NCBI GenBank assembly: GCA_015501055.1
Contig: JADNYV010000009.1
Coordinates: 124,001-188,000 of the forward strand
Length of the DNA: 64,000 nucleotides
Origin: Mucidula mucida
Lineage: Eukaryota > Basidiomycota > Agaricomycetes > Agaricales > Physalacriaceae
Direction: 5' to 3'
The position numbers and the translations under genes are program-made. Below the pieces are notes generated by a model. It saw only the letters and a program-made list of their open reading frames with translations, was not told the origin of the DNA and made no database searches. Positions 15,512 through 38,368 of the stretch are shown here, one piece after another. Within the stretch, counting starts at the first letter, position 1. Each line of letters opens with the position of its first letter.

Positions 15512-15590
15512 GAACCCCGTGAGCATTGAACCCACGGAGCTCAGCCATTTCTGTGCATCAGCACAACAACGAGTATAACCACTGCGCCAA
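15512..15590 (-). repeat. tRNA-like sequence inside the hAT relic
   Basis: On the minus strand TGGCGCAGTGG (15589-15579) matches a polymerase III A box, and GGTTCAATGCT (15532-15522) resembles a B box at roughly the tRNA distance. The acceptor stem does not pair, so it is not a functional tRNA; it may be a tRNA-derived remnant at the internal deletion point. This is weak evidence. Confidence 0.35.
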
Positions 15591-16832
15591 AAGTACTCCA
15601 CGCTGCACGAAGTCATTCCCGTGTTCGACCTGCTCACCAAGGGTCTCGAGAAGCAGCTGCTTCGAACGGACATCCCCGTCGTGGTCCGCAAGGCTGTCCA
15701 GCGCGGCCTCATCGTTCTGGACAAGTATTACTCCAAAACGGATGATTCCGTGATGTGGAAGACTGCGATGCGTGAGTTTTCTCTCTTTTGGTTCAACCGC
15801 TTGTTAATTTTTGGTTTAGTGCTACACCCGAAGCATCGCGGGCACTACTTCACGAATCAGAAGTGGGAGCAGGCGTGGATCGATACCGCTGTCAGCGCCG
15901 CTCGCAAAGTCTGGCAAGAGGATTACAAGCCACTCATCAAGGCAGTCCCACCTCCGCCCGAGGTTGATTCGGACGACGACGCCTACGATATCTATGCTGC
16001 AGTTCATTCCTTCCCAGCCGTGTCTCAGACAGATCCATTCGATGCTTTTATTTCAGCGGACGCCACGGATGACGATGGAATCGATTACTGGGTTTCGAAG
16101 TCCGCACCGCACAATGCGGAGTTTATCACCCCACAACAAGCCCTTGCCCGGATGGCTCTCGACTTCTTGAGCTGTCCCGCCACTAGTACTGATGTCGAAC
16201 GACTCTTCTCGCACAGTGGTCTTGTCGTCTCCAAACGACGACACAATCTCGCTGCGGACTCAATTCGAGAGACCACGATACTTGGACAGTGGCTTGCCAT
16301 TGAGGATCTTGTCCCCGAGCAGAAGATTGCGAAGTTCTTGCACAATCGGAAGTTACGGAAGAAGGATTTGAATGAGGACCTCTCGACCGACTGGACGGAT
16401 TCGGATGCAGACGCAGACGGAGGTGACGATTCCTCGGAGGATGCTGCACCGATGGATGTTTCCGATTCAGAGGTGGAGGTTGTCGAGGAGGTTGTCGAGG
16501 AGGATGAGGTTGTCGAGGAGGACGAGGTGGTTGACGAGGATGAGGTGGTTGACGAGGATGGGGATGATGTTGAGGAGAACTTGTGGACCAAGAGGAAGGG
16601 GAAGGGCAAGGCTGTTGCACAGTCGGAGGAGATGGACTTTTCTGATTTCCGCGATGGTATGGATCCTGTCTCAGAGTTTGACACGGGTCATGATGGTGAT
16701 GTTGAGATTGACGATGATGACGATGATCTCTATGAAACGATTGAGCAGGTAGTTTTGGTTCGACGGCGCAAGCCTGCTTCTTCACCTCAGGATACTACTG
16801 ATATGGATGCTACTGATATGGATATAACTTGA
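15591..16832 (+). pseudogene. hAT transposase, C-terminal fragment
   Basis: The reading starts abruptly with YSTLHEVIPVFDLLTKGLEK, passes a likely 52-nt intron (15772-15823, GTGAGT...TTTAG) and continues LHPKHRGHYFTNQKWEQAW. The diagnostic hAT dimerisation domain follows: ALARMALDFLSCPATSTDVERLFS and SKRRHNLAADSIRET. A long Asp/Glu-rich repeat tail ends at 16832. The BED zinc finger and the first catalytic Asp region are missing upstream, so the protein cannot be a full transposase. Direct repeats (GTTGTCGAGGAGGAT-type) build the acidic tail. Confidence 0.82.
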
Positions 16833-17892
16833 TACACTTACGACCTACTTACTTTAATCTTCACTGTCTTTATGTTTGAATTTGCTTGCTGATACGTGAG
16901 TATACTCGAGTATACTCGGATCGTACTCGAGTACTCGAATACTCGAGACTTATGAAGTACTCTCGAGTAGAGTAGATATTCGAGTAGAGTCTCGAGTGAA
17001 GACTCGAGTCTTGAGTATTGGGTTTGAGGTAAGAGTTACTCATACGATGAGTCCGAATATACTCGAGTATGGACTCGTGTCCATCTCTAGTTCAAGCTCG
17101 ATATACTTCTTGAGTCCCTCGGGCATCTCTTTGTCAACAACTCCATGGCCGTACTCCCGAGCTTGATCAGGGATCATTGTACCATTCATGAAAGACTGCA
17201 GCTTTCCGGGGCTGGATGACCACTTGTTCGATCGAAGATAGTCTCGGATTTGAGCACAAATGGTGGGGTTGGAAAGAAAGGACCATGTTTTCCCATGCAT
17301 TCCGCGGCGTGAAGTGGGAATTTCACAATTTGCAAGCCATGCTCGCACCCACAAGCGAACCAAACGACCGCCCGAGTTTTTTGACCATCCATTGGCCTGA
17401 GCGGCAATCTCCCATGCTTCAGTATGACTTTTGCTCTTCAGAACGAGACAAAGGTGGCCTTTGATTGCGCGCGCATGTTGCGCTTGAAGCCCGTTCTGAT
17501 TATCGCTGCCCTGCCATACAGTTTTCTTTGATTTGATAAGGTTAGAGATGGTGGTGAGTGCATGCTCCATCTCCTTGCGGCGTGCATCTTTCTCCTGTGC
17601 ACGTTGTTCGCATATGGGAACATTGTGCTTGATGCGTTTCGGGGGAGGAGGGGGGCGAACACAAAATGATGCCTCCGTAGAGGTTGTGGGAGATGCGGGA
17701 CGACTGGGAAGGGGACTTTTCCGCACTCGCGTATCCTCAACATCTGAGCCTTCGATATCAGACAGCAGATCAAAGGAATGTAACGGATTTTCATTAATGA
17801 TGTCAGAAATATTGGAATTGTAACCAGTAAATGGTGATACTGGGCGAGATGGAGAAGGGGATGGAAGTCGCGATGAAGATAACGAAGGAGAA

Positions 17893-18420
17893 TGTTATGA
17901 ATCGCCATATTTTCACATTTTCAATCTTATCATATCTTATCGGGGGCTTGTCTTATCAACCAACGGACTGTTTCATCATCTGTTTCGTCACCGATCATAC
18001 TCCTTTTCATTACCAAAGCCGTACTCATGTTGGACACACACCCAACACATGGATGACATCATACATGCCAATACCTCATGGACTACCTATTGTATACACA
18101 CCACCGACACTCGTAGCACACATGGTTGTTTCAGTATTATTACTTACATGCAGTTACCACTCGTATTTAATGGTTTCATGGACTAGTAGCATACAACACT
18201 GGGTCAAGGGCGTGGAGTTATCCCTAGCGGAAACACGTATGGACAAGGAGTCCCAAACACAGGCTTACTAGTATATAAGCAGTAGTATAGTATCATTGTA
18301 CTCTAGTTCCGATCTCGTTTATACACCTGGCCTAGCCTAGTCTTACGAACACGAACATTTTCTTCCTTAGTTCTTACTGTGGTACCTGGTTGAGTCTCGT
18401 GGCTTAGTCAGTCGCTAACA
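17893..18420 (+). repeat. 5' LTR of gypsy A
   Basis: 528 bp with TGTTA...TAACA ends; a TATATAAGCAG motif at 18271 may be the TATA element. Long open frames inside it are not genes. Confidence 0.92.
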
Positions 18421-19019
18421 GAAGATCGGAACTACTTTCTACCACCTACCACACATCCCTGATCGTCGATCAGCACTTCGCTGTTTGATCATCGCACATT
18501 CCCCTATTCCCTTTCCCTGTTTACAGATCGACGGATTCCTAATTCCAGCGCACGTCCACATACGTGTGTATTGGTCCCAGTAGCGCCGGCTAACAGTTAG
18601 AGATAACTGCCTCGGGTGCTGGAAGTAGCCGCTCTCACGAGAACGAACTTTTGGCAGCTGCACTTCAGTGGGCGCTGTTTACGGGTCAACCCCCGTTCCC
18701 AGGAAAACTTCGGCTTACCTCACACCAGAGGGACGTCGGCTGGGCAATTGCAAACTTGTGACGAGCTCTTGGGCTCCGTAGATACGTAGTCAGTAGTCGG
18801 TAAAATAGTGTAGACAGTTATAATACCTACCTACTTTACTTACATTACGATACACACCATCATTCCCCAACCTACCAAGTCCTGGATTCTATCTCAGATC
18901 TAGGCGATTCCTCCTTATTCATCCAAACCTCTATTCCCTCACCCGTTTCATCCAAATCCGCATCACCCATATCCCCACTTTCACCCTTTCACTCTCCAAT
19001 CCTATCACCTCGATTCATC

Positions 19020-19949
19020 ATGTCCAACGAAGCACCCGAAACCGCTCCTCACACACCCGCTCATCATGCCGATGTCGAAATCAAAGGCCGATCCCTTGTC
19101 AACAAACCTTACGACTATGACGGGGACAAGTCCAAGTACAAGAGCTGGTGGCGATCGATGTTCACATATATACGTGACAAGAAGAACAACCTCACATTGG
19201 ACTCCGAAAGGATCGATGTTGTTCTTTCCTATATCCGAGGAGATCACGTAGATGCATGGGTCCAGAACTACTCGGACCAGAACTTCGATGAGGAAGAAGA
19301 GGAATGGACAGTCTCTTGGACGGAGTTCAAGGAAGACTTGAAGGAGCGATTTGTGGATTCCAACCTCGCGCGAGACGCGCAAGACCAGATCGAGCAGTTG
19401 CGCCAGGGGCAAGACACCGCTCAAGATTTCTTCCAGAAGTTTGAGGTCCTGCTTACTCAGGCAGGATACTCGAAGGATGACGCATTCGTTGTGCGACTTC
19501 TCAAGACCAATGTCAACGAGAAGATCATCGACCAGATCTATGGCAGCCAAGACGGGTTGCCAGAGAAGTACAAGGATTGGAAGGCACAGATCCTTCAGAT
19601 CGATCAGCTGTGGAGAAGGCGGGCGGCGAGCAAGAGGTCCGGAATGCAGTCCCGGCCTCAAGCTCCGCAGGTGGCTACATCAAGAGCCAATCCTACGAAC
19701 CCACCCCCGACGCCGATCACACGACGAGATGCCACCGGCGTTACCTATGGAGGAGCCGGCAGGCCGATGGACATTGACAATGCACGTCGAAGGGGACTCT
19801 GCTTCAGCTGTGGCGAACATGGCCACGTTAGCAGGTTCTGTCCGAAGAAGGGTCGACCTCAGACAATTCGGGGTTTATGGACCAAAATGAACGACAAGGA
19901 GAAGAAGAAGTTGGCCGAAGAGCTGGGTTTTGCGAAGCTCCCGCAGTAG
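19020..19949 (+). CDS. gypsy A Gag (capsid and nucleocapsid)
   Basis: 309 residues. The capsid-like region ([59 protein letters not shown]) is followed by a basic linker and one zinc knuckle [14 protein letters not shown] (CX2CX4HX4C). The ORF is complete. It overlaps the pol frame, which lies at -1, with a slippery heptamer G GGT TTT at 19925-19931. Gag builds the cytoplasmic particle in which the element is reverse transcribed. Confidence 0.9.
19925..19931 (+). promoter_or_regulatory. putative -1 ribosomal frameshift site of gypsy A
   Basis: GGGTTTT is in the required X XXY YYZ phase relative to Gag, six codons before the Gag stop. Pol is open in the -1 frame. GCTCC (19936-19940) and GGAGC (about 19965) could pair downstream. 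Confidence 0.6.
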
Positions 19950-22900
19950 ACGCAGTCCTGCCGGAGCAGTCATCAAGGAAAGGGTCGTCAGATGCAGAAT
20001 CTATTTACAGTACGGGTACTGAAACATCTAAAATATCATCGACGACTTTACCACCAAAACCTGCGAAAGAAAGATTTGAGCCAAATACGCCCGAGTGGAT
20101 CGCACAACGGCTAAGAGAGGATGACGTGCCGAGAGCAGTGGGAATTTTGAGAGCATGGATGCCGGAGCGGAGAGAGAGAGAAGCGACGAAGGAGAAGGTG
20201 ATGGCGATCAGAGCGTTGACAAAGGAAGCTGCGGTGGAAGTTGTGACGGAGTTGAAAAAGTCGAGGAAGTACATCCGGGGAACAAAGGGGCAGAACATGA
20301 AACTCCGAGTAACCATAGAGAGCGTACACACAGGCTCTGAATGGGAAACAAGTGCCCTTCTTGACAGTGGAGCAACGGGTTCTTGTGTCAATAAAGAATT
20401 TGTCGAGAAGAACGGACTCCCGATCAAGGAGTTACCGGTCAAGCTCCCTGTCTACAATGCAGATGGAACCCTAAACAAGGGAGGAGCAATCAAAGGTTTT
20501 GTGGAGGTCCGGATGAAGATCGGCGATCACGCAGAAAAGATTGAGTTGGCTGTCACCAATCTTGGCAAAACAAGCATCTTTTTGGGGCTAGATTGGTTAC
20601 GATATCACAACCCCATGATCAACTGGACGGAATCCATGTTGACTTTTGATAGATGCCCAGACCGTTGCGGCTACCTACCCGAGTATAACTCGCCGGAAGA
20701 TGAAGGAGAAGATGTAGAAGAGAAGTTGGAAGAGGGAGAGCGCTTGTTCTGGATGGACTGGGACAACTATCGCAAAAGCGGTAAAAAGCTGAGATCACAA
20801 CAGCCTTCATCTGCTGCTGCACCTTACATTGAGGAATTCTCCGATGTATTTAGCAAGGCGGACTTTGACAAGTTACCAGAGCGAAGACCCTGGGATCACG
20901 CGATAGAACTTACGCCTGGTTCCAAACCGGTTGACTGTAAGGTTTATCCCCTTAGCCCATCCGAGCAGAAGGCGTTAGACGAGTTCTTGGAGGAAAACAT
21001 ACGCACGGGACGCATACGGCCATCAATCTCACCCATGGCGTCACCATTCTTCTTTGTCAAGAAGAAGGACGGAAGCCTTCGGCCAGTGCAGGATTATCGG
21101 AAGTTGAACGACATAACAATCAAGAACCAATACCCCTTGCCGTTGATTCAGGAGCTTATCGACAAGTTGAAGGGAGCAAAGGTTTTCACGAAGATGGATG
21201 TCCGATGGGGTTACAATAACATCCGGATCAAAGAAGGTGATGAGTGGAAAGCGGTGTTTAGAACAAACCGAGGGCTGTTTGAGCCATTAGTAATGTTTTT
21301 CGGACTCACAAACTCGCCGGCAACGTTTCAATCGTTCATGAATCACATCTGAAGGAGTTGATTGACGGCGGACATGTTATAGTTTACCTGGATGATATAC
21401 TTATCTTTACGAACACTCTCGAGGAGCATAGACAGATTGTACGAAAGGTATTGGAGATATTACGAGTAAATAAGCTGTATTTAAAACCCGAGAAATGTAG
21501 TTTTGAGGCACAAACTGTAGATTATTAGGAGTCATTGTTGGAGGAGGAGAAGTGAAGATGGATCCGGCAAAAGTGGCCGTAGTGAAGGAATGGAAGGAAC
21601 CGACGAAGAAGAAGGAAGTACAGTCATTCCTGGGCTTCTGCAACTTCTACCGACGTTTCATCCGGGGATTTGCGGGAGTAGCGAAGCCATTGACATCGCT
21701 AACCGGGAAGGGCAAGTGGGTCTGGGGCATGGAGCAGCACGAGGCGTTTGAGGAGTTGAAACGGAGGATGACGGAAGAACCTGTTCTGATCGTACCACGC
21801 GACGACGGCAAGTTTGAGTTGAGGCAGACTCCTCAAACTATGCGAACGGGGCGGTTCTTTCCCAGTTGGTTGACGGAAAATGGAGACCAGTAGCCTTTTG
21901 GTCTCGCGCGCTGAACGAAGTAGAGCGCAATTATGAGATCTATGACAAAGAGATGATGGCTATTATGGACTCAATTGACGATTGGAGACAATATCTCCTT
22001 GGAGCAAAGGAAACGGTGGAGGTGTTTACCGATCATCAAAACCTCCAGTACTTCCGGAAGCCACAGAAGTTGAATCGGAGGCAGGCGAGATGGGTTACGG
22101 AGTTGGCGGAGTATGACATACAGATGATTCACAAGCCGGGCAAGACGATGGGGAAAGCTGATGCCTTGTCAAGGATGACAGGCCTTGAGAAGGGGGAAAA
22201 AGATAACAAAAACGTTGTTTTGCTCAAGCCGGAGTTTTTTATTTCACAAATTCAATTCTCTTTACATACAGTAGATACACCGGAGGACGAATTACTTAAC
22301 AAAATCAAACAAAGAAAAGGAAACAAAGACAGATACGTACAAAAAGCATTAGAAAACAAAGAAAAAGGATGGGAAGAGAAGGAAAATGGACTTATTATGT
22401 GGAAGGATCGTATTTACATACCGAAGGACAAGGAATTGCGGGGAAAAGTTATTGGAATGCATCACGATGCACAGCTTGCAGGGCATCCCGGACGATACAA
22501 GACCCTCGAGCTGATCACACGTACCTATTGATGGCCAGGAATCAGCCGAGACGTCCGTGAATACGTAGAAGGGTGTCAAAAATGCCAGGTCACAAAGTCA
22601 CATCGCACGAAGCCGGCTGCACCTCTTCATCCTATTGATGTGCCAAGCAAGCCATGGGAGATAGTAGGGACGGACATGATTGGAGAACTGCCGGAATCAG
22701 GAGGATACAACGCGATCAGCACATTTGTGGACCATTTCACAAAGCGATTACGCATCATACCGACACACACCACTCTGACGTTGGAAGGCATGGCTCGCAT
22801 TTACCGTGATCGCATTTTCCCCATACATGGGATGCCACGACAGATGATACATGATCGAGGTCTGCAATACCACTTGCGTTTCATGAAGGAGTTGTACTGG

Positions 22901-23796
22901 TTGTTGGGCATACAAGGAAACTTTACAACGGCGTATCATCCACAAGCAAACGGGCAAACAGAACGGTTGAACCAAGAGATAGAACATTTCTTACGGTTAT
23001 TCGTCAATTACCATCAGAACAACTGGCACGAATGGCTAGCCCCTACAAAGGCACCGGTCCAAAAACGGCATTGAGAAATGAGACTGCGCAGGAGTTTGGC
23101 GACGGCATGAGGAAAACATGGGACAAAGTAGGGTTGGCATTGAAGATGGCAAAGGAGGACATGAAACGGTTTTATGACAGGAAGCGAACAGAGGCAGTAG
23201 AGTACAAGGAAGGCGACAAAGTATGGCTGGAAGGGACGAATCTCAGCACGGACCGACCAATGAAGAAGCTCAATGACAAACGCTTCGGGCCGTTCAAAGT
23301 GATCAAGAAAGTTGGGACGAGCTCTTACAAGCTCCAGATTCCTCACACGTGGAAAAGCATTCATCCCGTGTTCAATGAGGCCCTGTTGACGCCTTACCAC
23401 GAGCCCCAATTTCCGACACAACCCCGAGACACGCGTCCACCACCCGTGCTGGAAGGAGCCGAACCGGAATGGGAGGTTGAGAAAGTGGTTAATTCCCGAA
23501 AGTACCGTGGGGGTTTTCAATACAAGGTTCACTGGAAGGGTTATGGCACACATGAGCAGACATGGGAACCGGCATGCAATCTCAAAAATGCCGACGAAGC
23601 TATCAGCGATTTTCACCAACAATATCCGAACAAGCCTAAGCCACCCACGCTTGCTCGCATTGAAGTCCCCATGTCGCAATTTCCATCACATCTATTCCAA
23701 CCCATGCCACCGCCTGATACCGAACCCCTTGACGTCATGTTACCCTCTGCAGTCCTTATGGAGCGACTCTGGTGCAGAATGGAACTTGCGCCTTAA
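19932..23796 (+). pseudogene. gypsy A Pol: protease, RT, RNase H, integrase, chromodomain (broken)
   Basis: The aspartic protease ([12 protein letters not shown]) and RT ([34 protein letters not shown]) are open up to 21352. A one-base loss there moves the frame to IVYLDDILIF. Further one-base losses occur near 21523 (after QTVDY) and 21828 (before ADSSNYA). RNase H (VEVFTDHQNLQYF) and integrase (GHPGRYKTLELI) follow, with TGA instead of Trp at 22529-22531. The integrase core (DMIGELPESGGYNAISTFVDH, YHPQANGQTERLNQEIEHF) is joined by a deletion near 23045 to a C-terminal region with a chromodomain (EWEVEKVVNSRKYRG, YKVHWKGYGTHEQTWEPACN). It is not functional. Confidence 0.88.
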
Positions 23797-23807
23797 GGAG
23801 GGGGTGA
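23795..23807 (+). other. polypurine tract of gypsy A
   Basis: AAGGAGGGGGTGA directly precedes the 3' LTR start TGTTATG. Confidence 0.75.
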
Positions 23808-24335
23808 TGTTATGAATCGCCATATTTTCACATTTTCAATCTTATCATATCTTATCGGGGGCTTGTCTTATCAACCAACGGACTGTTTCATCATCTGTTT
23901 CGTCACCGATCATACTCCTTTTCATTACCAAAGCCGTACTCATGTTGGACACACACCCAACACATGGATGACATCATACATGCCAATACCTCATGGACTA
24001 CCTATTGTATACACACCACCGACACTCGTAGCACACATGGTTGTTTCAGTATTATTACTTACATGCAGTTACCACTCGTATTTAATGGTTTCATGGACTA
24101 GTAGCATACAACACTGGGTCAAGGGCGTGGAGTTATCCCTAGCGGAAACACATATGGACAAGGAGTCCCAAACACAGGCTTACTAGTATATAAGCAGTAG
24201 TATAGTATCATTGTACTTTAGTTCCGATCTCGTTTATACACCTGGCCTAGCCTAGTCTTACGAACACGAACATTTTCTTCCTTAGTTCTTGCTGTGGTAC
24301 CTGGTTGAGTCTCGTGGCTTAGTCAGTCGCTAACA
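23808..24335 (+). repeat. 3' LTR of gypsy A
   Basis: Same length as the 5' LTR, differing at three positions by eye, and followed by the GAGAA target copy. Confidence 0.92.
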
Positions 24336-25070
24336 GAGAACAAGTCAATGGTACAGGAGACGGTGCCGGAGATGGCGCAGCGGACATGGTTGCCTTTGGT
24401 GCAAAGAAAGATCTCATCATACTTGCTTGAGAGCTGATTGCGCATTAGCCATGAGATGAGAAAGATAATTAAAACTCACCCTTTACGTGTCTTTGCATCC
24501 TGCTCCTCCTGCTTCCTGGCCTTTCTTGCCTTCTCCCTCTGCCAACTTGCAGATTGGCCATTATACCCAAGGCTCCGCTTCGCAGTCGCCTTCTTCCAAT
24601 CCTTCGAGGACATACCACTCGCAGTATCCGTCAAGGCCTCGTTCACCGTGAGTGGTTTCGCGATTGTTGCCAGCTCCTTCGTCATTGCTTGTTCCGCGGC
24701 TGCCAACACTTCATGTGGCATAATCTCTGCATAATCGTCGTCAGAGACATCCGAGTCTGTCTCATCATCCGTGTCCGAGTAATCACTGTCATCGGAGTCA
24801 TCATCGCCAAGGTCAACAAGGCCAGGTGGGTTGTTGTTAACCGTTCCATCCCAGGTACAAACACCGTCATCGATGGCGCGATCGAGGGCTGCACACAGCT
24901 TCTCATATTCAGCAAGGCGGCAAGCTTCTCTGCAAGCTGCTTTTACTACACGGGCTGCCTCAAGCTTCTCCTTTTCCCGGATTGTTAATTGTTTGCATGG
25001 TTTCTTGTTTTTCGGGGCCATGGAGATGATGTATGGAAGCAAAATGGGTGTATTCTAGGGTTAGGGTCTA

Positions 25071-25500
25071 TGTTAAGAATGTCGGGAATTCTGTGCGTCG
25101 CGTTCGTAGCGACAAATGAAGATAAGCTTTAGGGTTCAATTACCGTGGAGAACGACAGTAAACTTATGTTCGAAGAGAAGAGTAGAACGAAAATAGAATG
25201 AGATTGTGAGCGAAGCGTGTCGTACGAGAGAGAGAAATAGCATGAGATAAGAAACAGATATCGAAAATATGTGTATGGTTGTGCGCAATAGGCAAGGTAA
25301 AGTTGAATCTACATACCGAGCTACTTAAATAGTATGAAGCCTCGTTGCGGAGGCTATGAAACATAGCATACATAAGGCTGTGAGGTACAGCATGATAAAT
25401 AAGGGAGTGAAGGCAGTGAGAGATAGGAAAAGCGAAACACTACGCGTGAGGAGAGGATCACGTCACGTGTATCGCGAAGATCTTCGCGATATCCATAACA
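25071..25500 (-). repeat. 3' LTR of gypsy B
   Basis: 430 bp, with the same palindrome at 25471-25490; seven differences from the other LTR by eye. Confidence 0.9.
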
Positions 25501-25515
25501 GAGCCCCCCTTGCCT
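25501..25515 (-). other. polypurine tract of gypsy B
   Basis: The minus strand reads AGGCAAGGGGGGCTC immediately before the 3' LTR, the expected second-strand primer position. Confidence 0.7.
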
Positions 25516-25529
25516 GAAGTCGCGAATTT

Positions 25530-27179
25530 TTAGGCTAAAAGGAAAGGCTGATTACGATAGCAAGCGGCGTCCAAATCGTCATCCGGATTACGGCGAGTAA
25601 AAGGGTTAAGAGATAGAACGAGGGCGTCCTGTGAGTCGTTGGTGTATATGGAAGCCGAAGAACTGGCGCTCGAACTGCAGGATGGGCCATGACCGTGAGG
25701 GACGTCTGAAAAGTACCCTTCATCGTCTTCCCACTCCGAGAGGTACTCCATGTCGCTGCCGTCTGTGCCGAGGAGGTACGACGGCCGAGGAGGTGGCACA
25801 TTATCGTCCAGTCGAAGGAAGTAGTTGAATTGAGTAACAAGCCCAAGGGCGGTCGCTTCTTCGTCTTCAATAGACCGCTCTATAGCTGGTTGACTAATTC
25901 AGATCGCAAGTAAGAAATAAGAACGTGAGGATCATACCGGTCAAGTATGCCAAATCCTCAACGCTGGCAACGTGCTGCCAGGAATCCGTATGATCTTCTA
26001 GTTCCTTCTCGTCAAAAATCATAGTCTCTACCGCTTCCAAGTCTGAGTGCCTCTCGGTGTCCGGGCTCCATTCCGCGAGTACCTCTAATTTGTCATCGGA
26101 ATCCTTGTAGAACTGCGGTGCTCGTTGAAATCGCTTGGGATGATAAAATAAAGGATCCTCGAAGCTAACCTGATCGGTAGTTTCAGCAGGTTCGTTCTGC
26201 GTCGACCAAGCATCACCGTCCTCTGAACCGTTCGATTCCCACCGTTCATAATCCCAGAAGAAAAGGGGACTGTCTTCGTCATAGTGCCAGCCGTACATCT
26301 GCCTGAGTGCCGAAATGGATAGACCGCGTCGTTCAGCCTCCAGTTGAACAAACCCTGGTGATACGGCTTCGAGGAAATCATAGCAACTCCAACCGTCACA
26401 AGCCCCAAAGTTCCATCTGTCCGCAATACCCTCCTCCAACAAAACTTTGAGCAACGCGCCAAGAATGGTGATGAGGCGCCGTAAATATAGTTGGATCCTG
26501 CGTTCATGCGCAAGAGCCTCTGCGCAAGTTGCCCAAGTGGCGCGGTAGAATCCTGGAATATAGGAGATACAATGATACAGCTGAGAAGGAGTATGAGGCG
26601 CGACAAGTCTTCGGAAGTGATTGGAATGACTGACTGTTTCGGCTAGCACACTTCCTTCGGCCGTAAATTGTAGGACCTCTAACATCATTTCATCGGAAAG
26701 ACGAGGTGATCGGACGTCTTCTGTGAGTACGTTGTTGAAACCGTAGTAGATAGAATCACCTGTATTCCAACAAGTCAGACTCGTTTACCCACCTGAGTGG
26801 TAGTGAACTTACGCAACACAAGAAAGGCCATTAAGGTCTGAAATTTGAATTCGTCGGGACCTGCGAATGAACCGTCCGCGAGCTCAATGATGTCTGCGGC
26901 GTCGAGCGCGTGAATACCTGGAACAACCAGTATTTCGATGACCGTGAGGAGCAAAGAGCTGAGAAGCACAGAGAGGATTGGAAAAAGGGGATCGCGATCG
27001 TCGAGGAGAAGTGGTTTGAGCATGACATTTTCAGAGACGAAGTCGATGGGGGAAGTTGATTGAGATATGGGGAATACTTTGGTGAACAATGGACCTTTTA
27101 TTCTGCGCAGAATCGATTTGGTCGGCGCTCGAAAGATAATATGCTCGTCTTGTGGGAGTAGAAGTCTAGGATGAATCAT
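25530..27179 (-). CDS. unknown 512-residue protein encoded inside gypsy B, downstream of integrase
   Basis: Exons 27179-26813, 26759-25938 and 25879-25530 join in phase (introns 53 and 58 nt with GTAAGT and GTATGA donors) into 512 residues with no frame damage. The N-terminal part has one hydrophobic stretch (LFPILSVLLSSLLLTVIEIL). The middle is helical (HERRIQLYLRRLITILGALL, GWSCYDFLEAVSPGF). The C-terminal part is acidic and Ser-rich (WEDDEGYFSDV, SCSSSASSSASIY). No signal peptide, zinc site or envelope feature is visible, and I do not recognise the family. It lies between the integrase stop and the purine tract, on the genomic-RNA strand. Either it is a captured host gene or an accessory gene of this lineage. 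Confidence 0.72.
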
Positions 27180-27482
27180 TGGAAATCGTCAGAACGTGTG
27201 TCGCGACGCGTGTTAAGGATTAAGAAATGAAATCCAGGTTAAGATGAAGGGAGAGATAGGGATGCTTATAGCTTCCGTGATCGGTGTTTGATTCCGGAGT
27301 GTTACGCGGTCGAATTGGTTTGGTTTATTCGCTGTGGACTGTCCTAGCAGCCGAACCGGAGAGGAATGATACTTGGGATAAATTTATGTCCCTCGAGTTG
27401 CGGAATTGTGAGTTCTATACCGGTACGCCGTTACTATTCCAATTTTGTGCAGCCTCGGCTTAATACTGAAGTCACGGTCACA

Positions 27483-29573
27483 TCACTCTGACGTGTTCTG
27501 CTTCGATCGCGCTTCCTTCCACTCCTCCAAGATGTATGGTGCGTTTTTGAGTTCCTTCGCAGTTTTCCACCTGTCTTGGCTAGGATCCTGATCCTTCCAA
27601 CGGATCTTGTACTTCTTAACCCTCTTGTGCTTGCCTTTGCCTCGAAAAAACCTTTCCTGGACAATTTTCTCGATTTCGATTTCTTTGTCTAGGACATCCA
27701 AGTCCGTTGGATCGAATCGCTTAGTTGGTTGTACGCCAAACTCTGGCGGGGACTGCTCGTACTTCTCAAGGTGAGCTGTATTCAATACTGGATGTATCTG
27801 GCTGTCTGATGGCATTCTCAACCGGTATGTCACAGGACTTAGTTTCTGAACGATCTCAAATGGCCCATCGTAGCGTGGTAGTAGTTTCCGACCGCGTCCC
27901 TTTTTGTCTTTCTTAAGAAGTTCCAGACTGTGAGGGTTCAGCACAACGAGATCTCCTTCCTCGAATTCGGTAAGTAGACGCCCGTTGTTGTAAGCTTTCT
28001 CCTGAAATGCTTTGCTGATCATTAACGCGTCTTTAGCTCGCAACCGCTCAGCCTCGAACTGTTTGATCATGTCTACGGCGCTGTCCTCTTCGTGGGCTAA
28101 ATGAATCTTGTCTGGTATACCCCCCGATGTCACCAAGTCGCCGATAGGACGTACAACATAGTCCGGATCGCTCAAGATGGCGGCTTCGGTAACAGGATGA
28201 AAACCATACAAAAGGAATGCAGGTGAGTATCCGGTACTCGAGTGAGGAGTAGTGTTGTATGATAGTGCTAACTTGTCAAGCCATTTATCCCAGTCGTTTC
28301 GCTTGGATCCTACATAGGCTCTAAGAGCTATCTCTAGAGTCTGGTTCATTATCTCGGTTTGTCCGTCAGCCTGTGGATGATGCAACGTCGTTAGAGCTCT
28401 TCTCATTCCCATCAGCTCACAGGCTTCTTTCCAGAATGCGTTCCTCCATCGCGTATCACGGTCAGTGATAACCTGCTTTGGTATACCATACTTACAGATA
28501 ATCTCCTTCATGAAGATTTCCGCGGTCTCTTTCGAGTCGATGTGCACCGAGCACGGCACGAAGATCGCAAATTTGGTGAGTTTGTCAACTAATACTAGGA
28601 TGTTATCGAATTTACCTGATGACAGCGGTAATTCGGGAATGAAATCCATGGAGACTACCTCGAATGGCTTCGTAGGAATCGGAATTGGTTGTAAGAGTCC
28701 AACTGGGCCATGCCGCCGTGGTTTGATTTTCTGGCAGATATCGCAGGTGCTGATATATTTCTTAAGATCTCGCGACATTCCGGGCCAATAGTGTGTGGTC
28801 GCCAGGCAATTGTATCCGCGATGATATCCTGCGTGAGCCGACTCTTATAGGTGAGTTATGTATTAGATCCATAACTTCTACTCGCATTGACAACGGCACG
28901 CAGAGTCTGTTGTTTCCGTTGGCGTCCTCAAAGAATATCAGTCCGTTATCGGCATAGAAGTACTGCGGGAATTTGGCGTTCGTATGATATGACGGCTCCT
29001 GAATCGAACTAATTACTTCGCGAAATAGTGGATCTTCAAGGTAAGCGTCTCTCCATCTTGCTATCTCTTCCTGTATTATGCTGACTTGTACGTTGAAGCT
29101 TCGACTACACGCTACGTTTAGCGGATGCTTCTCGAACTTGGTGATTTCGACTTCGATTGCGCTCATGACATCCTCTTGTCCGGAGAAACTTTCCGCGTAC
29201 AGCGTGGCTACCGAAAGTAATTTCTGCTCGAACCTCTCGCCTAACTCACTGTACATGCTACGCAGGGCATCTTCATTGGACCGTGTGAGATCTACGGCTA
29301 AAGATACGTTGGATTTGGACCAGACTCGGGTGGTAATCGACGTCATAGTTGCGAGATTGGGTCCACGTTGGAGTGTACTCGTCCGGCGCGATGGACGATC
29401 CGAAGATTAGGGAAAGCCAAAAATACTGTTCCCCAGGTAAGTAATCGTCTATTCACATTCTGAAAGGTGCGGCTCCATGTTAACGCTGCGTGATCTGTGA
29501 TTGCTAGAATAACTTCGCCTTCCACAAAGGGTTGGAACTTGATTAGGGCCTCTCTAGTCCAAATGCTAGACAA
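27483..29573 (-). pseudogene. gypsy B RNase H remnant and integrase (frameshifted)
   Basis: The RNase H end (FQPFVEGEVILAITDHAALT, RIVHRAGRVHSNVDPISQL) is followed by a stop. The spacer and integrase N-terminus run to about 28850, where one base is missing (after VMDLIHNSPI). The frame then gives HAGYHRGYNCLATTHYWPGM and the core (VVSMDFIPELPLSSGKFDNI, LHHPQADGQTEIMNQTLE). The C-terminus (28778-27483) includes a chromodomain-like end (IEKIVQERFFRGKGKHK, YKIRWKDQDPSQDRWK). The integrase core itself has no stop. Confidence 0.85.
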
Positions 29574-30751
29574 TTACGGTCCAAAATTTGCAGGAGAGAC
29601 GCTCGTTGATCTACAGATAGATTTGGTGAAAGATTAACAGCGGTACTGAAGTCGTTCGAAGGTGTTGGTTCCGGTGGAGTATCAGCCGTCTTTGGTCCGC
29701 CTTTGATTGGACCAACCGAAGCTGGGTCATTGGGTTCAGTAGCGTTCCTCTGGGCTTTTGAAGTGACATCGGAGGTACTTTGGATCACATGAGATCGTGT
29801 CTCGGATCTCGGTCCGATCTCCGTTACTCTCTTCTGTTCTATGACTTGTCGTAAAAACAACGCATGTCTTTCTTGCTGACGACGTGTCTCTTCGTTCCTT
29901 GGTCTCCGGTTGAGCCAGTTTCGTGGATTGAAAGATTTGGCAAGAACTTCTCCTGCGGAGATAACCACGCGTTGATCGGAAAAGTTAGATACATGCAGGA
30001 AAGGATTGTCGCGCTGGATGAGGGAATCAGGTGAGCCCCAGAAGGCTCGTCCGTTATTGTCTTGTTTGATTGATCTTTCGACAAATAGACTATTAGACTT
30101 TGCCGGGAAATGTGCATCAATAGGGATTCTGACGCACATCTCGGGACCTAAAACCACTCGACTTTGAGATCGGACCTTGCCATTAATTTGTCTTCTTCTG
30201 TCGCGTCTTTTTTGCTTCTGCATCTTCTTGTATGCTTGGCTGATTGTCAGTCCTGCTGACACGGCTAGAAGAGTTTTAACAGCAAATGTCTTTCCGTTAT
30301 CCATCATACGGGAATTGTTCAGTGAGTTTCTTACTTCCACCTCTCGTCCGGTGTCTGAAAAGTTGATGAAGGTCTTTCCGTCTCGTCTGATGGTCGATAA
30401 CTGGTACTGATCGGCAAAATCATGCCCAAGGATGAAAGGTGAACTCATTCCCTTGACAATGTAGGCATCTACGGTCATCTGAATTGGTCCTTTCTCCGTT
30501 TCGAAGTATAGGTCTAGCTTTACAAACTTGTTGATGATAGTCGTTCCGATGACCTGAATGAGGTTGATTCGCTGTCCTTGATGCGATTTCGGGTGAGTTG
30601 AAAGCTGTTTCCACGCTTTTTCTGAGATTAACGTGATGTCCGAACCCGAGTCAACAATTACTGGCATAACGTCAAGTCCTATCCCGTTGATACCCGCCTT
30701 CGTCTCCGTAGCCTTACTTCCGAGGAACGTGCATCTCGGGGGTTGTGCCAT
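29543..30751 (-). CDS. gypsy B aspartic protease region, open up to the RT deletion
   Basis: The ATG at 30751 begins MAQPPRCTFLGS. VIVDSGSDITLISEKAW is the retropepsin active site, and PFILGHDFADQY fits the second half. The frame stays open through a basic linker to the usual pre-RT segment (LSVDQRASLLQILDRNCLAF) and then runs into RNase H sequence in another frame. The whole reverse transcriptase domain, roughly 1 kb in related elements, is therefore missing at about 29570. Confidence 0.8.
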   Translation of the reverse strand: MAQPPRCTFLGSKATETKAGINGIGLDVMPVIVDSGSDITLISEKAWKQLSTHPKSHQGQRINLIQVIGTTIINKFVKLDLYFETEKGPIQMTVDAYIVKGMSSPFILGHDFADQYQLSTIRRDGKTFINFSDTGREVEVRNSLNNSRMMDNGKTFAVKTLLAVSAGLTISQAYKKMQKQKRRDRRRQINGKVRSQSRVVLGPEMCVRIPIDAHFPAKSNSLFVERSIKQDNNGRAFWGSPDSLIQRDNPFLHVSNFSDQRVVISAGEVLAKSFNPRNWLNRRPRNEETRRQQERHALFLRQVIEQKRVTEIGPRSETRSHVIQSTSDVTSKAQRNATEPNDPASVGPIKGGPKTADTPPEPTPSNDFSTAVNLSPNLSVDQRASLLQILDRNCLAFGLERP

Positions 30752-31030
30752 AATCTTCCTCAGTTCCAGTAATGGTCGACTAGGGTGAGCAACTCAATAG
30801 CTTACCTTTTCAATGTCTTTTGCTAGTCGTCTTCTTGACCTTCGATTGAGCGCAGGTTTTTCGTAGTACGCTGTGCATGCTCGAGCACTACGCGCTGGCG
30901 ATGAGTACTGTAGCGTTTTGACCGCAAATTCACATAACGGGTCACGGGGGTCTTTGAAGTGAAGCTATATATACATCATAACGGGTCACAGACCACTTTG
31001 GTCAGGCACGAGCCTCCAAATAAGGAAATT

Positions 31031-34000
31031 TCAGGTCCCGCTATAAGCGGAACTGTCCAAAAAAGGCAATTTAAGGGTCTGTGAAGCTATTCGCTGTAAC
31101 TTCAGACCATAATGGGTCACAGGCTGTGAAGTTACAGTTGAAACGCTACAGTATGCTGAGGATGCTGAAAGGTCCGTTAATTCTGAGTCCTGACTATAAC
31201 TGTCACTCATACCCCCCGGGGCTCTTTCAGCAGAGTCGCTGCCTGCTAATGGAGTAGTCCGAAGGGTTCTATCAAAATTCGACGCTTCGCTTTCGGATTC
31301 TGATTCCTCGTTGAGTTCATCCAGGACGTTGCAATAGAGGTCTTCATAATCGTCAAGGGCCTCTCGTAGGTCGTTGTCCGCTTGTGCTAATCGAGTACGT
31401 GCCGTTCTGAATGCTTTCTTTGAATACTTACATTCACAATCCCAATGCATAGCGCTACCACAATGACGACATGGTCGCGCACCCTTAGCCTTGGGAGTCA
31501 AACCTTTCTTCGTAACGTTTGCGTCGTCCTTAGGGAACGCAGGTGGTGGAAGCTTCTCTGATGCTCCAACTAAATTTACCCGGGCGGTATGTTCTCGCTC
31601 TCTTGGAAACCGTTCCTCATAACGATAACGTTGTGGTAGACAGTCGATCAAAGCCTCCTCGTGAAACCGCATAGCGTGCTGAAGATCGACTACGCTTTGG
31701 TAAAGATGCGTGGTAAGAATCATGTTCCATTGACTCGGGGCTCCTTGCATGATTTCGCTAATCATCTCAGAGTTGTTGAAGTTGTACGCGGTGTTTAACA
31801 GGTCTGCTTTCCGAATGAAATATTCACTTGAAGTTTCCTTGGTATGTCCCGATTCTCTAAACCTCGCATCTCCTGCTCGCTTTCTGAGCTTCTCCCACCA
31901 TCTTTTAGTCATGTAATATCCAGTGATTTCCTCGCGCAGAGTTGCCCACTCGACTTTGATTTGTCGGCGGTATGCGAACGGAAGAGACCAATACCATTCA
32001 CTGGCAGCACCGGTGAGTCGTTTTGGCACAATACGTCCTAGCTGCTGCCGCATTCTGAAGCTCATACTAGCTAGATCATCCATTTTTCGAAACCAATGAA
32101 TGATCTTGTCCGTATCGCCATCCCATGGTTCGACATCACTCAATTTTAGTTTCATATCGAAATGAGCTTTGAAAGGACGATTTCCATCGCCACCACCACC
32201 CTGAGCTGGACCGCCGTTACCACCGCCTCCACCAGGATTCCCTCCACCGCCGGGAAGACCTCCTGGGTTGCCATGAGGAGGATTTCCGCCACTGCCTCCA
32301 AATACGGGACCGCCTCCCCCCCCAGGGTGACCGCCGCCTCCTCCAGGGTGACCGCCACCTCCCGGGTGACCGCCTCCTCCTCCAGGGTGACCGCCGCCTC
32401 CAGGGTGACCGCCGTTACTGCCGCCTCCACCAGGATGACCGCCGCCTGTCGGGCCGCCACTGCCACTGCCAGAAGGACCACCAGATCCTCCTGAGGGAGT
32501 GCCTCCGAAAGGTGCTCCTCCTCCATAGCTGCCGCCACCAAAACCACCGCCACCGAAGGGAGGTTGTCCTCCTGTTCCGTAATTAGGTGGATTTAGGTTA
32601 GCCAGTGGACGATTTCCTTGAGAAGGTATGTTACCTTTGCTCAATGGTGACCCGTTTCTGCTGTTCGAGACGTTCAGTACTGGTGCCGTCCTCATTGGTT
32701 CGTCCTCTCTTGTTATCTGCGTTGGTTTGGCTTGGCCTGATTGTGACGGGTAAGCCAGAGACGTTCCACTATTAACAGGCAGTGTATAACTAGCTGATGA
32801 TACGTAGGGTGGAGCTTGGCTATACGGGAAGGGATTAATTTGGGCTGGTAAGCTTCCTGAAGCGGGTGTGTTCGCGGGATTACCTCCTTCGGTATGTTCT
32901 GCAATTGCCGTAGTAGGCATGGTGAAAGGTGGGGACACTGAATGTAACCCTGATTGTTCCTGCATTCGTGCTGTCGATTGAGCAAACCGTATGCTACTGG
33001 GATCACCGTCCGCTGATTTTTCCGGCTTATTTACGGGATTAATCAAGGAATTACGCAAGCCGTCTGCCTCTGACGCAACAAACGCCCCGCTTTGATTATC
33101 AGATGTTGAAGGATTAGGGCCACTTTGAAGAGATGGGTGGATCAATGAGGCTTGACTTGTTCGAGTCTTTGATGGCGGGTTGATATTTCCGATTGAAGTT
33201 AGTATCTCTGTCGGCTGTGATGAATGTTCCTGCCTTGCTGCATTGTCAAATGGGCCTTTTCCTATCATTGGACCGCCTTGTGTAGGGTACTGAGCTGAGG
33301 GAAACGAAGCAGAAATCGATTCGAAAGGATCTTGGGCTGATACTTTCGGTTCTAGCTCTTCTGGAATTGTATTCGCGCGTCGTTGGTGACCCATGAACTG
33401 TGATACTGACGAATACCTTGGTTTGTTTGCCGTACTCACTGGTTTGTCAGATATCCATGGTGTTGCGCCATAGCTGTTGGGATTACTTGTTGCCTGAATC
33501 ACTCGCTCCTGTTCTGCACGAGTCTCCTGATCAAGGTCTCCCCTCCGAATTGTTCCAGCCTCCCAATCATGGTACTCGTCAAGTTCTGACAGTAAGTGTT
33601 CTGTTTGTACGATAAGTCCGAGTACGTATACTTCGTAGTCGTAGTTGTAGAGCCAAAGGTCAATGTTGTTGTCCGGGCCCCATTGTGGCAATGCAACTAG
33701 CTTTCGACCAAAAATTGACATTGACCTAGCGGCCGTGTCGATTTTATTCTGTAATGCTTGAAGGAATTTCCGAAAGAGAGCTTTGTCTAGGCGATAGCCA
33801 TGAACTGTCCCTGACTTCTCGCGAATGACCGTGGGATGATAGATCAGTTTGTACATGAAATCAAGTTCATGTCTGAATGTGACGTTGATTTGAGGGATGG
33901 TAAGAGTGTCCAACGTAGGATAATGTATGTGTTCCTCTACATCAGCTAAGAGTTCTAGAGCTGCAATCCGTCGATCCTGCCATCTCCGGATATCTCCTTC

Positions 34001-34480
34001 CGCCCGTTCTGAATCATTCTTGTATACCTCCCCCACCAATCGACTGATTCCAGCTCGCGGTTGAAAGTGAGGCAGGGCTAAAAGCCTTACGCCTTCCTCC
34101 ATCAAGTCGGGTCCTTCTTCGTTGTCGAGAGAAACAAACTGCCCTATCAGTTCCTCCCCAATAGGATACATATCATCAAAGTGACCTCTGTGCAAGGCGC
34201 CCCAGTGACTCTCCAGATCTACGGGCTGGATGCAATCCTTACCTTTCTGTCGTCGCGTTTTGTCGACATACTCGTTGTTCATGCCTCCAGATCTTGGTGA
34301 CTGACCTCCGGATGCATGCGTATCGGGGACCTCTGCCTGCTGTGGCTGTGAGGAGGTTCCTCCGGCTGTGTCCTCTGTGAGCACAGGATTGGCTCTAGGG
34401 ATTGGGGTATTCTGAGACGTTGCACGGCCACTAGCTGGCGATGCGGTGCAGTGCTGTCCGGCACCCAATGTCTCAGCCAT
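31031..34480 (-). CDS. gypsy B Gag-like polyprotein, unusually long
   Basis: The frame is open from the LTR edge; the first ATG is at 34480, giving about 1149 residues. A long Ser/Pro/Thr/Asn-rich N-terminal half leads to a Gly-rich block (about 32170-32560) built of [12 protein letters not shown] repeats. Next comes the Gag core ([54 protein letters not shown]) and one knuckle [14 protein letters not shown]. An acidic C-terminus ends at 31031. It is intact although Pol is not. Domain assignment rests on the retroelement context and the Gag-like core. Confidence 0.85.
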
Positions 34481-34570
34481 GCGAGCTAAGATTTCTCGTG
34501 CTTCGCGTACTAAGACCTGTAGAGGTATTCGGGTTGTTCTCGCTGGCAACAAAGACAATGTGTCCACCAG

Positions 34571-35000
34571 TGTTAAGAATGTCGGGAATTCTGCGCGTCG
34601 CGTTCGTAGCGACGAATGAAGATAAGCTTTAGGGTTCGATTACCGTGGAGAACGACAGTAAACTTATGTTCGAAGAGAAGAGTAGAACAAAAATAGAATG
34701 AGATTGTGAGCGAAGCGTGTCGCACGAGAGAGAGAAATAGAATGAGATAAGAAACAGATATCGAAAATATGTGTATGGTTGTGCGCAATAGGTAAGGTAA
34801 AGTTGAATCTACATACCGAGCTACTTAAATAGTATGAAGCCTCGTTGCGGAGGCTATGAAACATAGCATACATAAGGCTGTGAGGTACAGCATGATAAAT
34901 AAGGGAGTGAAGGCAGTGAGAGATAGGAAAAGCGAAACACTACGCGTGAGGAGAGGATCACGTCACGTGTATCGCGAAGATCTTCGCGATATCCATAACA
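34571..35000 (-). repeat. 5' LTR of gypsy B
   Basis: 430 bp. It contains the perfect 20-bp palindrome ATCGCGAAGATCTTCGCGAT (34971-34990) next to one end and ACTTAAATAG-type promoter-like AT-rich sequence. Confidence 0.9.
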
Positions 35001-35034
35001 GTTTACAACTTGTTTTTCGCCCACGGATTCCATC

Positions 35035-35074
35035 GCTGTCACAAACTCGCAGTGACTAGCCCAACTGCTCCATA
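35035..35074 (-). repeat. right terminal inverted repeat (with TA) of the DDE transposon
   Basis: Reverse complement of 13714-13753 over all 40 bases. It is separated from its own transposase by the 9.9 kb gypsy B insertion. Confidence 0.88.
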
Positions 35075-35295
35075 GTAATTTACCTTTTGAGAAGCCGGAC
35101 AAACATGCGCAAACTATCTTGACGCGGTGTCTGACTCTTTTGATTCTCAGTTCTGTAACACCACGAGCTCAACACTAATTCATTAGTGCACAATGCATTC
35201 ATTTTTTTTTAGCTCTCGGCGCAGCATCATCATGCATAGCAAGACATCTTTTACAACAAATACATAGTTTATCATTCGGTGAGCCCCCGTCAACC

Positions 35296-36405
35296 TCATG
35301 CTTTGATTCTCTCTTCCATGTCCGTGTAGGCATTGAGAGCGAGCTGACCTCCCAAATGCGCGTACAGGACATTTCCTCCTTTGATTTCGCCTTTCTTGAT
35401 CATGTCAACCATACCAGCCAAACTTTTGCCCTCGTAGACTGGGTCAGTAATAAACGCATCCATACGTGCCCCGTATTTGATCGCCTCTATCGTCTGTTCG
35501 TCGGGAATACCATAGCAGCCTGCATGGTATCGCTCATCCAGAATGACATCTGCTTCCGTGATATCCTCCGCGGCCAGTCCAATTTTTTCGCCCGTGTTCT
35601 TCGCAATGCGTAGGACCTGCGCTCTCGTCTCGGCGGGCTTCGCTGAGGCGTCAATACCAATGACGCGACGTGGCGCGTCGTTGGGGTTGAGTTTGGCCAG
35701 CAGCTTAAACCCTGCAATCATGCCAGCGAAAGTGGAACCTGTGACGGCGCAGACAATGATGGTGTCGAAAAATACGCCGAGGTCTTTCTCTTGGGCCGCG
35801 ACCTCAAATGCCCAACGCGCGAAGCCAAGTCCGCCAAGCGGATGGTCCGATGCACCGGCAGGGATATAGTAGGGCTTCCCGCCTTCGGCTTTGACCTCAT
35901 CAGTGAGCGACGCGGCGGTGGGTTTGTGCTCAATTCCGAAGGTGGAGGCATCAAGACGAGGCTCGGCGCCCATCAAGCGCGAGAGCTGGAGGTTGCCGAC
36001 TTTATCATACACAGGATCGTTCCATTCTACCCAGTGCTCTTGCACCAATTTGGCCTGTACACGGCCATTGATCAGTGATATCGAACAAGACACAGCTCAC
36101 CGCACCTTTAAGCCAGATTTTGCTGCGACGGCAGCTACTTGACGCGTGTGGTTGCTCTGCACGCCTCCGATACTGACGAGCGTGTCTGCCCCTTGCGCTA
36201 GAGCCTCGGACAGGAGGTATTCTAGCTTGCGCGTCTTATTACCGCCAAAAGCTAATCCGGAGTTGCAATCGTCGCGCTTTGCCCAGATCCCGACATTACC
36301 ACCGAGGTCCTTCGTCATACGATCGAGCTTGTGGATGGGAGATGGCCCAAAGAGGAGGGACTCCCTCGGGATTTCGGCGAATGGGGACGGAAGGGTGAAG
36401 CTCAT
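35296..36405 (-). CDS. 1-aminocyclopropane-1-carboxylate (ACC) deaminase
   Basis: Exons 36405-36106 and 36054-35296 (51-nt intron) give 352 residues, the family length. The PLP lysine lies in [28 protein letters not shown] and [12 protein letters not shown] follow. The residues said to separate true ACC deaminases from D-cysteine desulfhydrases are of the deaminase kind: Glu in [12 protein letters not shown] and Leu in LYAHLGG. The enzyme opens ACC to 2-oxobutanoate and ammonia in the cytosol. In a plant-associated fungus it could use or remove the plant ethylene precursor. The start [21 protein letters not shown] is the only good one. No targeting signal is seen. Confidence 0.93.
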
Positions 36406-37100
36406 GATAGTAGGGCACGAAGAGGCAGATCAGATACGTTTCGACATTTGAAGACTTCTTTTAAGCAGGTGACGGACCCTCTGCGATACTTTCGGCCTCT
36501 GCATATGGGAGAGCGTTAGCCTACGGGGAACGGTATCATCTTAAAGGCTACGCTTGATCTATGACTCATTGATAAGATACCGCCGGGATAGGTTATCACC
36601 TCCTCAAATTGGACCCACTCCTGTCAGTGTTGCCGTTGTCCTCCGCCTGACAGGAAAAATCACTCGCAAGAGCTGTACAGTCGCGACGATCAATCATGAT
36701 TCTCGCGGACCACTACTAGTACATCAGCCCCTCACGACAATCCACATGGACCATGATCACGTACAATCACGGATGCCTTGTCCCATCAGCCGCCATCCAT
36801 ATCTGATACATAGACCAGTCTGTGTACCTCTGCGTACGCAAGGTTTTCATCAAACTGGAAGAGGAAGAAAGTGCCAAGCGCGTTGCATGTGAAGTCACGC
36901 CGGGTCTCAACGTTGGTAATATTAATAGCTGGAGGCTGGAGCATATGCTTTAGCCTTTGCCCATCATCTACACCCCAGAGACGCCCACGGAGGCTCTTCT
37001 CTCTCTTCTAGCTCAGCTTCAGTCCCTTGGTGGATTTTGACGCGCTCATAAACGCCTTCCTATCTTTTCGTCTCCAAGTCACTCCCTCGCCGGTACTATC
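36406..37100. other. divergent intergenic region between ACC deaminase and App1-like gene
   Basis: No supportable gene. It must hold the promoters of both divergently transcribed neighbours. Confidence 0.5.
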
Positions 37101-38294
37101 ATGCGTTCCGCAGCCTTCATTCTTTCCCTTCTCGCTGGCGTTTATACCCTACCCACCAACACTCCCCGAGCCTCCAATAGTGTTCTGTTATTCGACGCGC
37201 CCGCTTTCATTGATCCCGCAGACGGCACCAGCACCCTCATCAGCCAGGAAGTGTTTGTCTTCCAAGACCCAGTTGGAGATGCTCTAACAGAACTGACAAA
37301 CATCATAAAAACTGGTCTGGCTCTATTCGGTATCAGCGGAGAAGACCTCTCTACTGCAATCGAGCGGACCAAGCTCTTCGTCGCGGGTGGCATTAGTGAC
37401 CAGTCGGTATCGGTGGCTATATCCGGTTGTAGCGGGGCAGGTGTTTTGGCGGATACAGCCGACTCCGGGCTGGCGCTGCAGAACGTCTCTGTGGGGACGT
37501 GCGACACAGCGACACAGTTTTCTGGACAGTTGGTGGACGATGCCGCCACGACATCAATCGTATTCGCGTCCCCCGACAACGGTTTTGGCGTTATCTCTGG
37601 TATGCCATTCTCGAGCACCGCAAACTGAGTTTTGAGCTTACAATTCATAGATATTGACGATACCGTCAAAATCAGTCATGTTCTCGACAAGATAGCATTG
37701 GCGAAGGCTACGCTCTTTGATGATCCCACGCCCGTGGCCGGCATGCCCGACCTCTACGCCACGCTTTCCCAAACGCTGAATGATCCCAACTTCATATACA
37801 TAACTGGTTCTCCATTTCAACTATACCCCTTCCTTCGCGACTTTTTGGAGACATCTTTCCCAGAGACGCGTGGGCCCATCTTCGCCAAAAATCTCACCTT
37901 GTCCGACCCGGCGGGTATATTCGATCTCCTATTCGATGACAACGACACGTTCGACTTCAAACTATCTCAGATTTCTCGCGTGCAGGGTATGTTCCCGAAC
38001 AAGAAGTTCTTGACAGTCGGGGACTCCACCGAGAAGGATCCCGAGACGTATGGAGAGGCGTAAGGTTCTTTCCTCGCAACATTTCTTTGCAAGGTTGACG
38101 CGTTTCTCAGGTTCCGTCTGTTCGGAGATTTCATTCAGTGCATCTGGATTCGCAAGGTTGATGATGCGGACAACTCTGATGAACGGTTTGCGGCCGCATT
38201 TGAAGGTGTACCGGAAACGAAATTCAGAGTTTATACGGACGACGATATTGTCAACGTTCTACCTACGATTGATGTTGCCGGTGGGTCATGTTAA
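37101..38294 (+). CDS. secreted App1-type (DUF2183) phosphatidate phosphatase-like protein
   Basis: Exons 37101-37599, 37651-38059 and 38111-38294 give 363 residues in phase. A clear signal peptide (MRSAAFILSLLAGVYT) comes first. A beta-rich N-terminal domain follows, then the catalytic DUF2183 domain beginning DIDDTVKISHV (DXDXT), with FIYITGSPFQLYPFLRDFL and KKFLTVGDSTEKDPETYGE as the other conserved blocks. Yeast App1 is a cytosolic Mg2+-dependent phosphatidate phosphatase of actin patches; the signal peptide here suggests a secreted or wall-associated relative, which is inference. It is divergent from ACC deaminase and convergent with the monooxygenase. Confidence 0.88.
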
Positions 38295-38368
38295 TCTGTT
38301 TTAAGGCAGGAAATTTGGCACTATGTAATACACTCGTTCATACCTATTGACCTGGCCGATCTCGAAGC

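Follow-up and report, generated by a model that had tools for sequence, protein, structure and literature searches.

LTR elements arise by reverse transcription of RNA, a passage for which introns are the classic test, since those that are spliced are lost. Among plant elements, the intron of Ogre lies within pol, and that of EVADE concerns gag. Both Ogre and EVADE are described as using introns to make subgenomic RNAs (PMC12786077). The locus reported here resembles them in that its introns run in the same sense as the genomic RNA of an LTR element, functional in those elements and predicted here, but it differs in that they are plant elements and its own introns lie in a separate 3' gene. 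Cer1, an LTR retrotransposon of C. elegans, encodes in the env position the 517-residue protein CERV, which is made from a spliced mRNA and is described as having no obvious homology outside nematodes; CERV is nuclear and needed for export of unspliced Cer1 genomic RNA, and its mRNA has five exons, exons 1-3 being in the gag frame (PMC10309623). Our locus likewise has an accessory protein of similar size in the env position, with splicing predicted from sequence, whereas its predicted exons lie wholly after the integrase, and the likeness is one of description, not of sequence. LTR elements of bdelloid rotifers carry various unrelated ORF3s after pol, several of them with transmembrane segments, and are described as expressing these ORF3s from spliced messages; introns inside ORF3 are not mentioned in the main text of that report (PMC5408684). 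Published fungal and spikemoss elements belong to the same superfamily and, for the fungal ones, the same host kingdom; the labels of a figure legend include an additional ORF and note no intron in it, a comparison made by description only. Cer1/CERV and plant Ogre appear to be the nearest precedents by analogy. The literature searched, which mostly excludes subscription papers, yielded no description of a fungal LTR element with an additional ORF that contains introns.

The window is a stretch of 64,000 nucleotides of contig C937 of Mucidula mucida, and the genome searched is the 59.9-Mb assembly of the same fungus (1047 contigs), in which protein searches scored the best candidates only. The element under study, gypsy B, has LTRs that end in TG...CA and differ from each other at seven of 430 sites (six transitions and one transversion). 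Its target-site duplication has one mismatch in five, and its flanks recur in a second haplotype, the left in C388 and the right in C1030. In RNA order, gypsy B consists of an ORF in the gag position, a protease, a deletion that removed the reverse transcriptase (RT) and part of the RNase H, and an integrase in a shifted frame; the 1982 bases from the integrase stop to the LTR contain the accessory gene. The ORF in the gag position matched no Pfam family above the cut-off. In the integrase, Integrase_H2C2, SH3_Tf2-1 and Chromo scored above their cut-offs (Chromo, 30.3 bits against 25.1), and rve scored just below (31.5 bits against 32.6). The original prediction that gypsy B had lost RT and carries a frameshifted integrase was borne out: no RT family was detected among the eight ORFs scanned with Pfam, a protease-RT query from the element gypsy A at E 1 found no RT match in gypsy B and matched the RNase H alone, which is partial, and the integrase is out of frame with the sequence upstream. 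We read gypsy B as a chromodomain Ty3/gypsy element (chromovirus), a deleted member without RT, placed by its integrase and LTR.

Features of gypsy B and its accessory gene (positions in the window; sequence motifs on the sense strand of the element for the gene)
Feature	Position	Strand	Remark
Left flank GTCTA	25066..25070	.	Imperfect 5-bp target-site duplication with 35001-35005 GTTTA
3' LTR	25071..25500	-	98.4% identical to 34571-35000
Polypurine tract AAGGGGGGCTC	25501..25511	-	Identical tract and LTR start at C349
Exon 3, acidic serine-rich tail	25530..25885	-	Stop at 25530
Predicted intron 2, 52 nt, phase 1	25886..25937	-	58 nt with acceptor 25880
Exon 2, conserved core	25938..26759	-	47-53% identity to C349/C535 over 80-95 residues, E ~1e-18
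Predicted intron 1, 53 nt, phase 1	26760..26812	-	GTAAGT...CTGAC...ATACAG
Exon 1	26813..27179	-	ATG at 27179; strongly hydrophobic segment at about residues 63-90
Integrase with H2C2 zinc-binding, SH3 and chromodomain	27483..28844	-	Frame shifted relative to upstream ORF
Open frame 5' of integrase frame	28762..29406	-	Start overlaps RNase H remnant
RNase H remnant adjoining RT deletion	29301..29570	-	57% identity to C192 pol over 90 residues
Protease region	29543..30793	-	RVP 21.7 bits against cut-off 20.7
Long ORF, gag position	31031..34639	-	1202 codons, stop to stop
5' LTR	34571..35000	-	Pairs with 25071-25500

The accessory gene lies on the minus strand, from 27179 to 25530, which is the sense strand of the element, between the integrase stop and the polypurine tract. 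It had been predicted as a three-exon frame of 512 residues with two phase-correct introns. We confirmed the frame but revised the length. Intron 1 is one of two possible GT-AG joins of 35-90 nt. For intron 2 there are five such joins, all in phase 1 from a single donor at 25937: acceptor 25880 yields 512 residues, acceptor 25886 yields 514, and three further acceptors lie downstream. By manual count, the spacing between a 'DL' and an 'LGL' motif is 17 residues in the 514-residue version, as in the relative on C349 described below, and 15 in the 512-residue version. The 514-residue model seems the better splice choice, because the alignment to C349 then has no length difference. Each of the two introns holds an in-frame stop; the complete protein can be made only if both are spliced out, and unspliced RNA would yield truncated proteins only.

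The DNA of the accessory gene recurred once in the genome, on C388. This contig, which we read from 17000 to 31346, parallels the window over 14075-30269 minus a 1.8-kb segment at 15262-17088, and C1030 parallels it from 31121. The missing segment is hAT-derived (Dimer_Tnp_hAT in 15579-16832), present in the window and absent from this haplotig. We considered C388 as an independent copy and rejected this; C388, like C1030, is the other haplotype of the same locus, running parallel to the window. Searches of the genome with the integrase DNA and the LTR found this locus in its two haplotypes and nothing else. Exon 1 of C388 lacks one base at 27136, which breaks the frame, and the earlier description of the gene as free of lesions therefore holds for the window copy only. 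Between C388 and the window there are six indels and two substitutions over 24338-30269, and C1030 compared with window 31121-42663 shows 157 gap openings and 12 mismatches in 11.6 kb. The C1030 haplotig probably carries many sequencing indels, which is a warning for frame-based claims in this assembly. Because haplotig differences are mostly indels (six against two in C388, 157 against 12 in C1030), the base loss at 27136 is possibly a sequencing or assembly error.

A diverged relative of the gene was found at one other locus. With exon 2 as query and E up to 1, the genome gave six matches, namely the window locus, C388, and two stretches each on C349 and C535; the last two contigs are 99.9% identical over 8 kb, C535 being the haplotig of C349. 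The relative extends on C349 from 137948 to about 139080 and lies directly 5' of an identical polypurine tract and LTR start. It is 5'-truncated in the middle of exon 2 by a gypsy A-type element, has one break within exon 2 and continues through exon 3. The C349 LTR is 375 bp long, with the same start and nearly the same end as the window LTR and a diverged body. Its other copy was found on C535 only, and a second LTR copy of the C349 element was not found within the 50 kb examined. The 19-base junction of tract and LTR, with two or fewer mismatches, occurs at four places in the genome, that is, two loci in two haplotypes. The C349 core as query (E up to 1) returned the same four places and nothing else. 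The exon 1 query returned the window, C388 and two further matches at E 0.26 and 0.40, which we took as chance level. The proteins of the window and C349 are about 49% identical in the core and 38% identical over 255 aligned codons, and the local alignment scores of 192 and 158 compare with shuffled maxima of 45 and 65 (300 shuffles each). The gene is more than a chance arrangement of open segments, given a relative in which the frame and intron 2 are conserved. Since this sole relative found also ends at the same polypurine tract and LTR start, in a diverged element, the suggestion that the gene belongs to the accessory or envelope position of the element lineage gains support. The position of the gene, the LTR frame around it and the diverged relative at the same place can all be read from the DNA itself, as can the common position and phase of intron 2 and the constraint on the protein.

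Over the 255 aligned codons, identity between the window and C349 at codon positions 1, 2 and 3 was 49, 61 and 31%, respectively. Third positions are near saturation and the first two are kept, a pattern that points to long-standing constraint on the protein while the two element families separated.

We consider it probable that this is an old accessory gene ('ORF3') of a chromodomain Ty3/gypsy lineage, with predicted spliced expression and with introns kept because the RNA that is copied stays unspliced. One alternative, which we regard as unlikely, is that the gaps are not introns at all, and that an intronless ORF was broken by indels or its frames are joined by ribosomal frameshifting. Gypsy B does have another frameshift, at each of the two breaks the window frames share a few overlapping bases, and splicing is only predicted. 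However, two diverged elements agree in both the position and the phase of the exon 2/3 break. On C349 the two frames are non-overlapping, and the 11 nt between them exclude a join by ribosomal frameshifting; exactly one GT-AG join of 35-90 nt links them (138650, 50 nt), in phase 1 at a site homologous to intron 2, albeit with a weak donor, GTACAA; the frames there can be joined by GT-AG removal only. The GTAAGT donor, CAG acceptor and branch-like CTGAC of predicted intron 1, which is seen at one locus, also speak against chance breaks. We take intron 2 to be common to the window gene and C349 by descent.

Capture of a host gene, as the original prediction also proposed, would mean that an adjacent host gene, introns included, was picked up by a recent element, either through read-through or as DNA. 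Introns are typical of host genes, and the accessory gene has no known retroelement domain. Nevertheless, searches of the 60-Mb assembly, among the best candidates scored, found no host copy outside the two element loci, and the sole relative found likewise precedes this polypurine tract and LTR start. A capture older than the separation of the two element families would be required. We find this proposal quite improbable, and the genome searches turned against it. More improbable still is that the locus is a domesticated gene, kept by selection for the fungus and not for the element. The window frame is intact though RT is lost, and its retention had been taken to suggest selection or recent capture. 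However, at half the LTR divergence the coding sequence would have gained about 12 substitutions, with a probability of ~0.59 that none is a nonsense change, so that an intact frame is likely by chance. We therefore rejected the intact frame as evidence that this locus is under selection; selection is visible in the C349 comparison instead. In addition, the C388 frame is broken and the C349 copy is degenerate. The intact frame alone would thus be weak evidence, and the codon pattern appears silent on selection at the present locus.

If the gene is an old accessory gene of the element, the full-length RNA that is packaged and reverse transcribed would stay unspliced and so keep both introns. 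The ~514-residue protein, which would serve the element, would be made from another, spliced RNA that starts either at the LTR or at an internal promoter within 27180-27482. The splicing of the introns, the packaging of unspliced RNA and the action of the protein in the element's own cycle are what we infer from the sequences. The window element would have been copied from RNA that still contained both introns, because it has a matching LTR pair and LTR elements are known to be made in this way. The same presumably applies to the C349 element, whose 5' part is missing, because the tract and LTR start at its end are of the same type. On this sequence evidence, unspliced RNA must be the template of reverse transcription in this lineage. 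The earlier argument that same-strand introns imply unspliced packaged RNA was sound, and the shared intron 2 strengthens it. An intron held in two diverged families of one LTR lineage would mean that packaged RNA must normally escape splicing. If this is true in a fungus, it would offer a system for asking how an element balances spliced against unspliced RNA.

The protein itself gave few clues to function. Simple hydropathy analysis showed one strong segment at about residues 63-90 (a 19-residue mean of up to 2.65, beginning at residue 68), weaker segments at 211-236, and none at either end. After residue 290 the protein is acidic, with net charges of -21 and -16 in two stretches, and it has two N-glycosylation motifs and six cysteines. 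Nothing in Pfam or NCBIfam scored above the cut-off; below it were Kringle (E 0.14), BALF1 (E 0.049) and DUF6760 (E 0.07-0.3). No relative of the accessory protein was found among PDB sequences, and viral contigs gave seven pattern stretches and no relatives. An AlphaFold model of exon 2 made without an alignment (pLDDT 38.6, pTM 0.27) was unusable, and no fold search was made from it. The protein did not resemble a retroviral or errantiviral Env: there was no homology in Pfam or PDB, and neither an N-terminal signal peptide nor a C-terminal membrane anchor was seen by simple hydropathy, so the predicted layout is not that of Env. A membrane-associated accessory role is our guess, because of the strongly hydrophobic segment in exon 1. 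The main alternative, by analogy with CERV for Cer1, would be regulation or export of unspliced RNA.

We compared the 3' ends of related elements in the genome. The nearest elements by integrase query form two clades, one on C192, C870, C1004 and C243 and the other on C582, C137 and C227 (best 93 of 1130 candidates scored), and the protease query returned C243, C582, C137, C227 and C192 besides its own locus. In a tree of 16 integrases, gypsy A and its kin were separated with support of 1.0 from both clades and from the window element. The DNA after the integrase was examined in 14 of the 28 relatives with loci, over a stretch that stops short of the 3' LTRs. In five of the seven members of the two clades, 316-485 codons are open in the sense direction, up to the end of the DNA examined; the frames of the other two, C1004 and C243, are broken (211 and 121 codons). 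All seven gypsy A-type elements examined have at most 130 open codons in the 1059-1629 bases after the integrase. The ORF3 of C192 (C192:47794-51576) has 1244 residues, directly follows the integrase and contains an arginine-serine-rich stretch, which by eye we presume to resemble splicing factors. The ORF3 frames of C582 and C137 are 560 codons long; in front of each is a frame that opens with ATG and closes at a TGA found in both copies, and the frame continues past the TGA. We considered an intron around this TGA and dropped it, as the aligned DNA, inspected by eye, had no convincing GT-AG join. Third positions account for 96 of 137 differences between C192 and C870 (467 codons) and for 105 of 145 between C582 and C137 (364 codons).

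When the accessory protein and the ORF3s of the two sister clades were compared by profile, probabilities were 0.1-0.3%, with no relation seen among the three kinds of ORF3, and the best match of the accessory protein in 12 related integrase loci had an E of 0.92. The sister-clade ORF3s showed no relation to the accessory gene in these comparisons and therefore support the position, not the gene. A constrained 3' gene appears to be common in this group, with a gene identity that varies, and gypsy clades of one fungal genome would thus carry different, constrained 3' genes. A broader reading, which we hold to be doubtful, is that of a fungal chromovirus clade with a retrovirus-like plan, in which unspliced genomic RNA would coexist with spliced RNA for unrelated ORF3s; some of these would control the splicing or export of their element's RNA, the 1244-residue ORF3 of the C192 clade being one such regulator.

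In the window, a perfect 40-bp inverted repeat (13714-13753 and 35035-35074) brackets a region that includes gypsy B. The enclosed DNA also contains a nested gypsy element (17892-24337) with 531-bp LTRs and a transposase-like frame at 14173-14913, which scored 21.4 bits for DDE_3, short of the 28.6-bit cut-off. We read the bracketed region as one DNA transposon with nested insertions. A frame of 192 codons, stop to stop (24476-25054), with the start MAPKNKKP, had no Pfam match. Since it shares the strand of gypsy B and follows immediately after the 3' LTR, that LTR could drive it.
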